A stretch of 42,611 bases of DNA from Candidatus Gastranaerophilales bacterium. Lineage in GTDB: Bacteria; Cyanobacteriota; Vampirovibrionia; Gastranaerophilales; Gastranaerophilaceae. Below the pieces are notes generated by a model. The model saw only the letters and a program-made list of their open reading frames with translations, was not told the origin of the DNA and did not search any database. The position numbers were made by a program, and so were the translations under genes. Shown one piece after another: positions 6,590 through 42,611 of the stretch (position 1 is its first letter; each line of letters begins with the position of its first letter). Where the stretch lies: assembly GCA_944326675.1 (NCBI GenBank), contig CALVET010000012.1, forward strand, positions 1 to 42,611. Reading direction: 5' to 3'.

Positions 6590-8818
6590 ATGAGAAGATT
6601 ATTTGTATTCATACTCGTGATATTTTTGTCTTTGTCTTTATCAATAGGACAAGGCGTTTTTGCGTCTGAAGAAGACCCAATTTCAGGAGTTGACCCTGCA
6701 ACTGCATCCAGAGTCGATATTAAAGAATTAAAAAAAGTTACGGATTTCAAGTCATTTTTTAAGCGCAAACCTAAAGAAGAACAAAAAAAAGAGAAGAAAT
6801 TAAAAATTAAAGAAGTTCCTTTGGATAAGTCTGATTTTTCTATGTTTGAAGATGCTGATACGTCCGTATATGCACCTGTCGAAGAGGATAAAAATCAGGT
6901 TGAAGTAAAACAAGAAAAAAATAAAAAAGTAAAAAGAAAAAATATATTTAATTTTTTCCAAAGAAATAAAACTCAAAAAGTTGAACCTAAAGATGAAATT
7001 ATTGAAGAAACACCTATTGAGCAGGAGATAACAAAAGACGAAGATTTTCAACATACTTATATAAATGATACAGACGCGGTTTATATTAAAGAAGTCGAAA
7101 TTTTTGGAAATAATTTATTGGATACTAATTATATTAGAGAACAAATTAACTCTAAAGAAGGTTATCAATATATTCGCTCCGAAGTTTCAAATGATTTAAG
7201 AACCTTATATAATACAGGCTATTTTACTCAAAATCTTAGAGCGCTTCCTATTAAAATAGATAATAATAACGTTAAATTAAGAATTATACTTGAAGAAAAT
7301 CCTCCTGTAGCTGGCTTTAATGTTGTAGGGAATAACAGCATTGCAACAAGCGAAATTATGAATATTTTAAATAAATATAAGGGTCAGCCGCAAAATATTC
7401 TTAATATTAATAATGCAATAAATGAAATTCAAGAACTATATTCAACAAGAGGCTATATTTTGGCTCGCGTTTCAAAAGTTTCAGATGATCCCGATGGTTA
7501 TGTTAATTTTTTAATCGACGAAGGCATAATCGGGGATATTATTGTTGAAGGAAATAATAAAACAAAAGATTTTATTGTTAAGAGAAATATATTTTTACAA
7601 CCCGGATGTGTTTATAATGAAAACACAATGCGTTCTGATATTTTAAGATTGATGGGTACACAAGCATTCAAGGATGTTCAAAGAGAATTAAAAAAAGATG
7701 AAAGAACAGGCTTATATGATGTGTATGTCGCATTGGAAGAACAAAGAACGGGAAAAATTTCTCTCGGTGTCGGTATTGATTCGGCTTCAGGTTTCTTTGG
7801 TTCTGTAGGATTTGGTGAAAATAACTTTAGAGGTTTAGGGCAAAAACTTAATTTGAATGTATTAGCCGGTACAGGTATTTTGATGAATGACAGCTCCGTT
7901 GTTCAAAAAGCGAATTTACAAGGTGAAATCAGCTTTTTGGAGCCAATGTTTAAAAGAGAAAATCAATCTTTAGGTGCTCGTGTTTTTGCAAGATATTACG
8001 GAAGTTATCAAGTGCCGATGGCGATTGAAAAGCGTTTCGGCGGCGAGGTTACGGTTGCTCGCAAGTTTGTTGCGTTTAAAAACTTGTCAGGCTCAATCGG
8101 CTTGGGTGTTGAAAGCGTAACGCTTGATGAAGGTGACGAATCAGGCATGAGAAACAGATATGCTCAAAAGGGAATTAGCTGGGCTTATCGTGATAAAGAG
8201 CTTGATGGCGGATTTTATGTAAAAATTACTCCGGCGTTGACTTATGATACGAGAGATAGTGCTGTAAATGCAAGAAGAGGTGTATTAGCAAGAATTACTC
8301 TTGAAGAAAATCTTGGAATATCAGGCGATACATTTGGAAAATTGCACGGCATGATTAGAAAATTCTTGCCGATAGGAAAGAAATCTTCATTGGTTGTTAC
8401 GGCTAAAGCAGGCGGAAAGCTCCATGGGGATATGCCCGAATTTGCAGGCTTTGCACTTGGCGGACCTTATACAATAAGAGGTTTCAATATATCCGAAGTT
8501 GGTGTGGGTGATGGATACATGATGGGAAGCGTTGAATATAGAGCGCCAATTCCTTTTATAGACAGGCTTACATCTAATTCATTCTTAAACAATTTAAGAT
8601 TAGCTGCATTTGTTGATGCAGGTACGTTGTTTAGTAAATCAATAGGTTCGGATGTATTTGATAAGCCGGGTTATGCAATCACAGCAGGTGTAGGTTTGAG
8701 AGTATTTATTCCGGGACTTGGACCAATTAACTTAGATTACGGTATTCCTTTGACAAATACATGCGGAGTTGATAGAAAATCAGGCTTCTTTACATTCGGA
8801 ATGGGCGAAATGTATTAA
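6590..8818 (+). CDS. bamA: Outer-membrane assembly protein BamA/Omp85 with three POTRA domains
   Basis: This protein inserts beta-barrel proteins into the outer membrane and shows that the host is diderm. It has 742 residues. Residues 1-24 are a Sec signal peptide ending near GVFA. Residues 40-155 are a long linker rich in Lys and Glu that is not part of the usual family plan. Three POTRA repeats follow, at about 163-235, 236-312 and 313-386 (IKEVEIFGNN, FNVVGNNSI, IIVEGNNKT). The barrel runs from about 390 to the end and keeps the loop-6 motif IRGF followed by GVGDGYMMGSVEYRAPI. Three POTRAs match cyanobacterial and plastid Omp85 rather than the five of proteobacterial BamA. The last residue is Tyr rather than the common Phe. 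TTGGAGTAA precedes the ATG. TamA or another Omp85 relative remains possible. Confidence 0.88.
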   Translation: MRRLFVFILVIFLSLSLSIGQGVFASEEDPISGVDPATASRVDIKELKKVTDFKSFFKRKPKEEQKKEKKLKIKEVPLDKSDFSMFEDADTSVYAPVEEDKNQVEVKQEKNKKVKRKNIFNFFQRNKTQKVEPKDEIIEETPIEQEITKDEDFQHTYINDTDAVYIKEVEIFGNNLLDTNYIREQINSKEGYQYIRSEVSNDLRTLYNTGYFTQNLRALPIKIDNNNVKLRIILEENPPVAGFNVVGNNSIATSEIMNILNKYKGQPQNILNINNAINEIQELYSTRGYILARVSKVSDDPDGYVNFLIDEGIIGDIIVEGNNKTKDFIVKRNIFLQPGCVYNENTMRSDILRLMGTQAFKDVQRELKKDERTGLYDVYVALEEQRTGKISLGVGIDSASGFFGSVGFGENNFRGLGQKLNLNVLAGTGILMNDSSVVQKANLQGEISFLEPMFKRENQSLGARVFARYYGSYQVPMAIEKRFGGEVTVARKFVAFKNLSGSIGLGVESVTLDEGDESGMRNRYAQKGISWAYRDKELDGGFYVKITPALTYDTRDSAVNARRGVLARITLEENLGISGDTFGKLHGMIRKFLPIGKKSSLVVTAKAGGKLHGDMPEFAGFALGGPYTIRGFNISEVGVGDGYMMGSVEYRAPIPFIDRLTSNSFLNNLRLAAFVDAGTLFSKSIGSDVFDKPGYAITAGVGLRVFIPGLGPINLDYGIPLTNTCGVDRKSGFFTFGMGEMY

Positions 8819-8945
8819 ACGCGCAAGCCAGAGTGTAAGCCGTTAAAAAATGTCAATGCGTGGAGCATTGTCATTTTTAGGCTAAAACTATTGATAGCCG
8901 CCGTAGGATAATTGAGGCTGTTTGGCGACTTTAGCCAAGCAGAGC

Positions 8946-9151
8946 CGAAATACCCACAGGCGGAAAAAAACGCGAAAGCCGTGTGTGAAAACAAAGACAA
9001 GCGATGAGCTTGGCTTTGTTGAAACCGTACGATGCCGCCGTAGGATAATTGAGCAAACGAACGACAGCGCTAGCGATAGTGAGTCTTGCGAAATACCCAC
9101 AGGCGGAAAAAAACGCGAAAGCCGTGTGTGAAAACAAAGACAAGCGATGAG
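8946..9151. repeat. Two identical 63-base direct repeats (8946-9008 and 9089-9151)
   Basis: The two copies are identical over 63 bases and start 143 bases apart. Each begins CGAAATACCCACAGGCGG and ends CAAGCGATGAG. A 20-base repeat GCCGCCGTAGGATAATTGAG lies before each (8897 and 9034). The segments between them differ in sequence. The second copy runs into unrelated sequence after GATGAG, so its module A hairpin has lost its 3' arm. Confidence 0.9.
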
Positions 9152-9176
9152 GAAGGCGGAAGTTTTCTTCTTTTCG

Positions 9177-9233
9177 GTTCACTTTTCTTCTTTTTCATTT
9201 CGCCGTTTGAGAGAAAAAAGAAGAAAAGTGAAC
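9177..9233. repeat. Perfect 19-base purine/pyrimidine inverted repeat
   Basis: GTTCACTTTTCTTCTTTTT (9177-9195) pairs exactly with its reverse complement at 9215-9233 across a 19-base loop. One arm is almost all pyrimidine and the other almost all purine. It sits at the break point of the truncated second 63-base repeat. It may be the end structure of a small non-autonomous mobile repeat or a bidirectional terminator. No transposase lies nearby. Confidence 0.8.
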
Positions 9234-9314
9234 AATTACACATAGCAAAAGTTATTTAAAATAAATTTTAATATATGCTTGTTTTTGGTCGTAGGAATTT
9301 GTTCAATATGCGTA

Positions 9315-9347
9315 ATTTTCTGTTCTCTTTGAGCATTTCAGGGTCTT
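9315..9347. repeat. 33-base direct repeat, copy 1 (copy 2 at 9590-9622)
   Basis: A 33-base segment beginning ATTTTCTGTTCTCTTTGAGC and ending TTTCAGGGTCTT is repeated exactly at 9590-9622. Its end TTTCAGGGTCT matches the 3' arm of the CCCTGAA-CTCGT-TTCAGGG palindromes near the right edge, so each copy looks like a truncated or fused palindrome element. Confidence 0.85.
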
Positions 9348-9412
9348 TGTTGCAATATCCCAAGGAGATTTTATGACCAGTTCGAAATGACAAAAATAAT
9401 TCTTACACTCTC

Positions 9413-9446
9413 AAAAGATGCTGAAACAAGTTCAGCATGACAAATA
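9413..9446. repeat. Small palindromic repeat with ACAAG loop, copy shared with right island
   Basis: The segment contains ATGCTGAA-ACAAG-TTCAGCAT, an 8-base stem with a 5-base loop. All 34 bases of 9413-9446 are identical to 42413-42446. It is a REP-like dispersed palindrome. Related palindromes with other stem sequences lie at 9690-9713, 42457-42475 and 42495-42515. Confidence 0.85.
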
Positions 9447-9640
9447 CCACTTTCGTCACCCTGAACTGACTAGAAAATAGCGTAAGCCAGAGTGAAGACC
9501 AAAACGATGAGTTTTGGTCGTAACTATTGATAGGCGACGTAAGAGTTTTGCTATAGTAAAACTCCACAGGAGCAGAAAGCGTAAGCGTTATTTTCTGTTC
9601 TCTTTGAGCATTTCAGGGTCTTAATAATCTTGTGTAGTAT

Positions 9641-41711: not shown

Positions 41712-42330
41712 AAACCTTTGAAATTCGAGTCTTAGTCCGACCGGACTTAGACGAGAATGAAAAGGCGACAGGATGTGAGGGCGTGACGGCAGACCGTTGA
41801 GGTCTGGCGGACAGCCCGACACTGGACTAAAGCGACGTGGGACGTAAGTCCCTCAGGAGCAATCCTTTGAAATTTGAGTCTTACTCCGACGGAGTTAGGC
41901 AAAAACGAAAAAGGCATTGGTGCGTGAAGCTCGTGATGTCAAAACGTTGAGTTTTGACAGACAGCCCGACACTGGACTGAGGCGACGTGGGACGTAAGTC
42001 CCTCAGGAGCAAACCTTTGAAATTCGAGTCTTACTCCGACGGAGTTAGGCAAAAACGAAAAAGGCAGAGGTGTGTGAAGCTCGTGACGGCAGACCATTGA
42101 GGTCTGGCGGACAGAGCGGATACCGTACCTGACGCAGTTTGAGCCTAGCCAGACTTGGCTTGGCGAAAACAAGGAAGGCACAAGGTGTGTGCCGAGAACG
42201 CCGAAGCGCTGAGCTTTGGCGTTTGAGAAACCGTACCTGAGTAAAGCGAGCTTTAGTTCGCAGGGCGAACTTATGAGCTTTAGGGATTGGAAACACCTTT
42301 GTGGTGCGTGCAATCACCCCCGTCACCCTG
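41712..42330. repeat. Right repeat island: tandem modular hairpin units
   Basis: Units of 149-150 bases start at 41712, 41861 and 42011, each beginning AAACC or AATCC plus TTTGAAATT(C/T)GAGTCTTA; a diverged fourth unit follows from about 42140. Each unit has hairpin C (for example 41729-41752, 41880-41898, 42143-42164) and a spacer with GAAAAAGGC and GTGTGTGAAG. Hairpin A follows with loop GTTGA, GTTGA, ATTGA or GCTGA (41790-41806, 41937-41959, 42090-42106, 42197-42223). Module B comes next, GCGACGT-GGGAC-GTAA-GTCCC-TCAGGAGC (41832-41860, 41982-42010). Unit 4 ends in other hairpins (TAAAGC-GA-GCTTTA, GTTCGC-AGG-GCGAAC). Base composition is far richer in G+C than the genes; row 41761-41820 is 65% G+C by count. 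No credible gene is present. Confidence 0.85.
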
Positions 42331-42366
42331 AACTCGTTTCAAGGTCTAAATAACCACCTATTCAAT

Positions 42367-42446
42367 AATCAAGCCCACTATTTTTAGGATTAAAAGTAAA
42401 CACTGCACGCTTAAAAGATGCTGAAACAAGTTCAGCATGACAAATA
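42367..42446. repeat. Dispersed repeat, partner of 9641-9713 and 9413-9446
   Basis: Positions 42367-42440 align with 9641-9713 over their full length with one indel. The last part, 42413-42446, is identical to 9413-9446. It contains the palindrome ATGCTGAA-ACAAG-TTCAGCAT (42418-42438). Confidence 0.85.
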
Positions 42447-42452
42447 TACCCT

Positions 42453-42611
42453 GTCACCCTGAACTCGTTTCAGGGTCTATAATACCTCAGGGAGATTCCG
42501 AAACAAGTTCGGAATGACGCTTTGGAATGACACCACCCCTGCCACCCTGAGCCGACCCCTGTCACCCTGAGCCGACCCCCGTCACCCTGAACTCGTTTCA
42601 GGGTCTATAAT
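42453..42611. repeat. Cluster of REP-like palindromes at the right edge
   Basis: A 31-base segment GTCACCCTGAACTCGTTTCA plus GGGTCTATAAT occurs identically at 42453-42483 and 42581-42611. It contains CCCTGAA-CTCGT-TTCAGGG. Between them lies ATTCCGAA-ACAAG-TTCGGAAT (42495-42515), then two truncated copies reading CACCCTGAGCCGACCCC. A further copy with one changed arm is at 42321-42347. The cluster continues past the window edge. Confidence 0.85.

Follow-up and report, generated by a model that had tools for sequence, protein, structure and literature searches.

The window, the whole stretch of 42,611 nucleotides analyzed here, carries at about 41715-42240 a tandem, mosaic array of 100-150-nt units with a period of about 150 nt, and a second island of related elements at 8819-9573. 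Each unit comprises up to three hairpin modules, A, B and C, all read in the + direction: module A is a long hairpin with the loop GAC or GACY (GAC/GACT), module B contains helices P1, P2 and P3, and module C has the form GCGAC...GGAGC with the 3' end CAGGAGC. The elements of both islands are listed below, with the basis of each assignment in brackets; bit scores refer to R1, a covariance model of module B whose training copies include some of the window's own four array hairpins.

41715-41765, + strand: module A of unit 1, a long hairpin CCTTT...AAAGG with inner stem AGTCC-GACC-GGACT (sequence, fold).
41769-41828, + strand: module B of unit 1 (hairpin 1), with P1 AGGAUG/UGGACU, P2 GGGC/GCCC, internal loop GUGA/GACA, P3 CAGACC/GGUCUG and loop GUUGA (R1, 78.3 bits).
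41832-41860, + strand: module C of unit 1, GCGAC-GU-GGGAC-GUAA-GUCCC-UCA-GGAGC, with a tandem G.A closing helix and a Shine-Dalgarno-like CAGGAGC end (sequence, C-module pair counts).
41864-41914, + strand: module A of unit 2, with non-complementary outer arms and likely recombinant (sequence).
41918-41978, + strand: module B of unit 2 (hairpin 2), with a perfect P3 UGUCAAAAC/GUUUUGACA and a broken P2 GCUC/GCCC, a probable two-subtype chimera (R1, 66.6 bits, mismatches marked).
41982-42010, + strand: module C of unit 2 (sequence).
42014-42064, + strand: module A of unit 3 (sequence).
42068-42129, + strand: module B of unit 3 (hairpin 3), with P1 GGUGUG/CGUACC, P2 GCUC/GAGC, P3 CAGACC/GGUCUG and loop AUUGA (R1, 74.5 bits).
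42128-42178, + strand: module A of unit 4, a distinct cassette with inner stem GCCA-GACT-TGGC (sequence).
42183-42237, + strand: module B of unit 4 (hairpin 4), with P3 AACGCCGAAGC/GCUUUGGCGUU and loop GCUGA (R1, 43.5 bits).
8819-8963, + strand: first element of the second island, with a mini A hairpin GCGCAAGCC, a B-type hairpin with loop GTGGA and a C-type helix with the alternative pairing CCGCC/GGCGG (sequence).
8979-9031, + strand: B element of the second island, with P1 closed by C-G (CCGUGUG/CGUACG) (R1, 34.9 bits).
9497-9573, + strand: last element of the second island, with P3 GACCAAAAC-GATGA-GTTTTGGTC, then a C module ending CACAGGAGC (partial R1 match at 9497-9520; sequence).

The sequence-only reading of this DNA had described four hairpins at 41790-42223, and all four are present both in the sequence and as R1 matches, but each represents only P3, the innermost helix of an element 60 nt long that also possesses P1 and P2. 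In the array, P2 is a variable helix of 4 bp and P1 is either GGUGUG/CGUACC or AGGAUG/UGGACU. The pentaloop had been described as fixed: GTTGA is indeed its commonest form, yet among 166 copies with a recognized loop, 101 carry GTTGA, 27 GATGA and 9 GTGGA. Unit 2, whose stem had been noted as different and perfectly paired, does have a perfect inner stem (TGTC...GACA), but its P2 is broken, with the outer arms GCTC and GCCC facing each other unpaired, and on this evidence the unit looks like a recombinant between two subtypes. Modules A and C, which also have variable paired stems, were absent from that reading. The predicted fold of the 596-nt island is far more stable than that of dinucleotide shuffles (z = -8.5). 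Unit 1 alone, 147 nt long, gives z = -4.05 for the + strand against -2.84 for the - strand; modules A, B and C all form together in the predicted minimum-energy structure of unit 1, and the + strand folds better than the - strand. Three further hairpins placed at 8839-9519 were likewise borne out, by a whole R1 match at 8979-9031, a partial match at 9497-9520 and a hairpin at 8840-8880 with the loop GTGGA, read directly from the letters. The first element of this island begins immediately 3' of the stop codon of the open reading frame at 6590-8818. A second, unrelated palindromic repeat family (TCACCCTGAACTCGTTTCAGGGTCT, GATGCTGAAACAAGTTCAGCATGAC) lies 3' of the array at 42318-42611, up to the contig end, and has similar copies at about 9400-9470.

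A covariance-model search of Gastranaerophilales genomes, the check named in the sequence-only reading, found many further copies in the window's own genome and family. That genome (G000, 1.7 Mb) contains 48 BLASTN segments resembling the island, on more than 20 contigs, and 40 R1 matches; the genomes are fragmented metagenome assemblies, and such counts are lower bounds because copies cluster at contig ends. Within the order, R1 matches are confined to a single family, in which 28 of 117 genomes are positive, and a phylum-wide scan gave 23 positives among 292 genomes, all of them within this family; divergent subtypes escape R1, whose training set was a selection of copies. Many copies are partial or truncated, and copy numbers differ strongly between sister species. 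An exact 20-mer (CGGATGTGAGTCCGTGACGG) was found on 24 contigs among 84,980 species, most of them titled Gastranaerophilales and the rest Galligastranaerophilus or uncultured bins. The impression that no named family follows this plan also holds: in Rfam 15, at gathering and relaxed thresholds, neither the window nor the element copies of 20 further loci had a match, and only neighboring tmRNA, tRNA and guanidine-I RNAs were recognized at those loci; the open-access papers that could be searched on repeats or RNAs in this bacterial group held nothing relevant. One such neighbor is a guanidine-I riboswitch (RF00442; L160, 1613-1708) about 0.9 kb from an element copy.

Module B varies in sequence much more than in pairing. 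In 43 selected copies, P1 has 6 bp, P2 has 4 bp, the internal loop is GUGA/GACA, P3 usually has 6-9 bp, and the five-base loop is G-N-N-G-A in most. In the alignment of these copies 86.2% of cells are paired, as against 70.2 +/- 0.9% with shuffled partners, and both sides have changed in 141 cells, where shuffling gives 41.6 +/- 7.1 and sliding the 3' partners by 1-3 columns gives 37 or fewer. The covariation score is 0.426, compared with 0.142 shuffled and at most 0.143 slid, in a test that differs from R-scape and corrects incompletely for relatedness among copies. These counts support the earlier suggestion of selection for structure. P2 occurs as GCTC/GAGC, GGGC/GCCC, GTCC/GGAC, GAGC/GCTC and others, and P3 as CAGACC, CAGAGC, CGGACC, CGAAAC, CGTTGC, TGTCAAAAC and more, each with its own complement. 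At its outer end P1 closes with G-C, A-U or C-G, and the helix alternates in concert between GUGUG/CGUAC and GGAUG/UGGAC (tandem G.A); the closing helix of module C has GA facing GA in 109 copies, GC/GC in 6 and a mixture in 5. In both helices, tandem G.A and standard pairs replace each other concertedly. On the hairpin strand of P3, about 30 cells are G-U and 2 are A-C. Seventeen 6-bp stems are fully Watson-Crick, 16 of which lie one base pair away from another, and 11 further stems depart from pairing by G-U only, including CGGACC/GGTCTG, which bridges CGGACC and CAGACC; the share of stems within a single step, 94% against 71% in column shuffles, is modest evidence. Judged from these patterns, stem change is evidently ordinary compensatory evolution on one folding strand. 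Wholesale stem replacement inside the tandem array looks like recombination between copies, since broken chimeras also arise, as in unit 2; another two-subtype chimera is found in L007.

The element lies beside genes in a consistent orientation. Where an upstream gene ends within 70 nt of module B, 24 such genes are sense and 1 is antisense (p = 1.5e-6, an optimistic value because the counts include some orthologous sites), and within 130 nt the numbers are 31 and 5; in the same island set, downstream genes show no significant orientation bias. The long A hairpin often begins a few bases past the stop codon. Upstream genes include groEL, rpsH, rpsO, pnp, gap and gyrB, named by eye from C-terminal sequences. 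The site downstream of groEL holds at least one element in most genomes of the genus (g1), with different A, B and C cassettes, and in several genomes the groEL tail is duplicated (ATGGGAATGATGTAA) at the right end of the element. In other genera the element often stands behind tmRNA or tRNA, and to its right a gene end has been re-created. Direct repeats measure about 15-17 bp at groEL, more at tmRNA and 8 bp in the phage loci L378/L165. When protein-gene insertions were screened systematically for target-site duplications, groEL supplied most of the clear cases; with such repeats clear at some sites only and differing in length, they do not establish that all insertions follow a single reaction. 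In the comparison of the window's own locus across genomes whose downstream sequence was read (4 of 27 loci were unreadable), the element occurs only in a five-genome clade (G000, G342, G018, G019 and G021), with different modules. Two observations on neighboring sites may be added. A third dispersed repeat (start GCGGATTTTGACTAG, end GTCAATAATCCAAGAC), noted in the groEL 3' regions L320, L325, L336 and L343 and in L137, adjoins the stop codon of groEL in several genomes, and by eye, element copies in L140 and L016 seem to lie inside rRNA operons, beside 5S rRNA and behind the 23S 3' end.

The element also occurs in phage structural operons, in low-copy genomes and in three IMG/VR contigs (L380-L382) found with C-type patterns; exact B-type patterns gave no match in viral contigs, and BLASTN against named phages and plasmids gave none. 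A short viral pattern, GTGACGG...GCGGACAG, was discarded in IMG/VR: the 80 contigs taken from among the matches listed were all chance matches, and 0 fit the covariance model. In L377, tail genes are separated by three element copies. A tail-gene junction that is filled in L377 is filled in L386 as well, but has no element in L383-L385, L387 and L388, whose two genes overlap there, and the relatives of L377 with the empty junction have a tail protein up to 89% identical. The empty junction reads GAGGTNGAATCGTGTTAAG (L387, L384) and the filled one GAGGTGGAAAGTGCGTGAGCAGTGTGTGAAG...CCACAGGAGGAAAAAGTGTTAAGG (L377); in the latter, the upstream gene stops at a TGA within the element, and the element's AGGAGG precedes the downstream start codon. 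A gp36/gp37-like junction is empty in all of the relatives examined, 17 in number, whereas L378 and L165 carry an element there, and an 8-bp direct repeat (TTGAATAT) stands on both sides of this element, which begins with TAA and ends with CACAGGAGC before a TTG start. From these sequences, the element appears to have entered phage junctions between overlapping or abutting genes, where its 5' part gives the upstream gene a stop codon and its 3' CAGGAG lies at Shine-Dalgarno distance from the next start. That a stop codon and a Shine-Dalgarno sequence were placed into a stop/start overlap is direct evidence for ends that suit intercistronic sites. CAGGAG as a general Shine-Dalgarno sequence was rejected, as among 161 C ends this arrangement is seen in phage junctions only. 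Two copies in L379 (5350-5490 and 6113-6300) lie antisense in a phage operon, directly before a native Shine-Dalgarno sequence and start codon, and the sense rule is therefore not absolute.

Two kinds of candidate mobilizing enzyme were rejected. RAYT, a Y1 transposase (PF01797), has 0 members in the g1 genomes searched (G000, G004, G010, G023 and G120), and among the other high-copy genomes, from which PF01797 is nearly absent, G131 is the sole carrier. A reverse transcriptase (PF00078), as the mobilizer of a SINE-like or group II-derived retroelement, is absent from the copy-bearing genomes G004, G023, G120, G040 and G063. In the window's own genome, a reverse-transcriptase gene lies about 1 kb from an element copy (L003 1900-2150 / G000:C53:11559-12251), and by eye the sequence between them resembles the variable region of a diversity-generating retroelement.

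We propose that the array probably belongs to a non-autonomous mobile mosaic repeat family of Gastranaerophilales and phages, of the BOX/BIME kind, that folds as RNA. This reading draws on the predicted fold and its covariation, the strand asymmetry, the sense-strand placement, the empty and filled phage sites, and the recombinant copies. The core element, of about 95-110 nt, would consist of a mini A hairpin (GC-GNNA-GC), module B (P1-P2-P3 with a G-N-N-G-A loop) and module C (GCGAC...GGAGC), with chromosomal copies often having a longer A hairpin and forming A-B-C tandem arrays. Such an element would insert, or survive insertion, at gene ends in the sense direction, a site that its own ends would fit through stop codons in the 5' part (GCGTGAGC, GTGTGTGA) and the Shine-Dalgarno CAGGAG at the 3' end. 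It would then be co-transcribed with the host gene, so that selection on the copies could keep the RNA fold through compensatory single-base-pair changes via G-U, while recombination would exchange modules between copies to give mosaics and the occasional broken chimera. Copies would persist at gene ends because the sense transcript folds and the neighbors are left undisturbed. We infer that an enzyme catalyzes transposition in trans, and we prefer RNA over single-stranded DNA as the selected form.

The preferred reading has to be weighed against three others. One, which the sequence-only reading had raised, is that template switching or quasipalindrome correction copies one hairpin arm onto the other and so yields perfect stems without selection. 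Perfect inner stems, and neighboring units with shared flanks and completely different stems, are what such copying would leave. Arm-copying acts on double-stranded DNA, however, and G-U and A-C cells would be expected about equally on the + strand; the large excess of G-U on the hairpin strand fits selection on one folded strand and speaks against palindrome rebuilding, as do the single base-pair steps with G-U intermediates, the concerted change from tandem G.A to standard pairs, and the broken P2 of recombinants, which was left unrepaired. We regard rebuilding as very improbable. A purely DNA-level mobile hairpin is a more serious rival, though we think it unlikely: a transposase or integrase would act on a folded single DNA strand, as happens in REP/RAYT, IS200/IS605 or attC sites, only foldable copies would spread, and gene ends would simply be where insertion is tolerated. 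Dispersed and tandem copies, subfamilies and chimeras would all follow from this. G-T pairs form in single-stranded DNA too, so the strand asymmetry also fits one DNA strand folding during transposition; at tmRNA the element ends, like att sites, repeat part of the tRNA-like 3' end; and two phage insertions are antisense. The distribution of PF01797 among g1 and high-copy genomes weighs against it, and the strong sense bias beside genes and the built-in stop codon and Shine-Dalgarno sequence point to a transcript.

Finally, the element could be a host-selected regulatory RNA of 3' untranslated or intercistronic regions, such as an mRNA 3'-end stabilizer, a translation-coupling element or a protein-binding site, with mobility secondary or long past. 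Its sense position directly behind housekeeping genes, from groEL to gyrB, and the filling of one position in several species with different cassettes would agree with such a role. The patchy occurrence across genera and at orthologous loci, the many truncated copies, and the very different copy numbers of sister species do not, and we consider this explanation doubtful. We favor instead the mobile, RNA-folding repeat family. A bolder form of it, which we offer only tentatively, sees here an intercistronic mobile element of a new class: a short cassette of structured RNA, common to phages and a bacterial order, that opens with a stop codon and closes with a ribosome-binding site. It might enter operons and even overlapping gene pairs while breaking neither gene, and only copies with a correctly folding transcript might spread, possibly with RNA or an RNP as the intermediate.

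Sequence is the usual means of recognizing small interspersed repeats, whereas the copies described here have their fold in common more than their sequence. With dozens of copies in one genome and hundreds in the family that adopt a common fold, selection on structure can be read directly from copies within a genome. The phage junctions show a way for non-coding DNA to lodge neutrally in a packed operon: the insert carries a stop codon and a Shine-Dalgarno sequence of its own. Such a cassette gives a testable rule for landing sites and a handle on the clustering of repeats behind stop codons.

Several known systems share parts of this plan. REP, BIME and REPIN sequences are dispersed palindromic repeats in mosaic clusters, many of them behind stop codons, and the REPs in BIMEs alternate in orientation. 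The Gastranaerophilales element resembles them in its dispersed palindromic mosaic clusters and its positions behind stop codons, but the units of the window's array all have one orientation, stem covariation is much richer, and RAYT was not found in the five g1 genomes; in a comparison with the REP-type foot tetranucleotide (GTAG/GGAG), module C does end in CAGGAGC, but within a paired helix. Like MITEs, the element is short, non-coding and hairpin-forming, inserts at new sites, has one 8-bp direct repeat, and has orthologous sites both with and without a copy; unlike them, it has no terminal inverted repeats that we could see, its ends being a stop codon and a Shine-Dalgarno sequence. Integron attC sites and integrative cassettes at tRNA 3' ends likewise put structure over sequence, and the gene end re-created on the right side at tmRNA and tRNA is a further likeness, but we saw no attC architecture, and numerous protein genes have insertions behind their stop codons as well. 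Closest in kind is the BOX element of Streptococcus pneumoniae (boxA-boxB-boxC), a modular small interspersed repeat with variable tandem module number and predicted RNA stem-loops, which is intergenic, non-autonomous and often co-transcribed with its neighbors (PMC3049150). Compared by description, the two are alike in their A-B-C-A-B-C arrays, exchangeable modules and varying unit number. They differ in that the BOX family is defined by its module sequences, whereas here stems change freely while loops, internal loops and pairing are kept, and in that the Gastranaerophilales element belongs to a separate host group, ends in a stop codon and a Shine-Dalgarno sequence, and has phage insertions with matching empty sites. 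The Gastranaerophilales element may fairly be called a new family that falls within a known broad kind but has unusual features.
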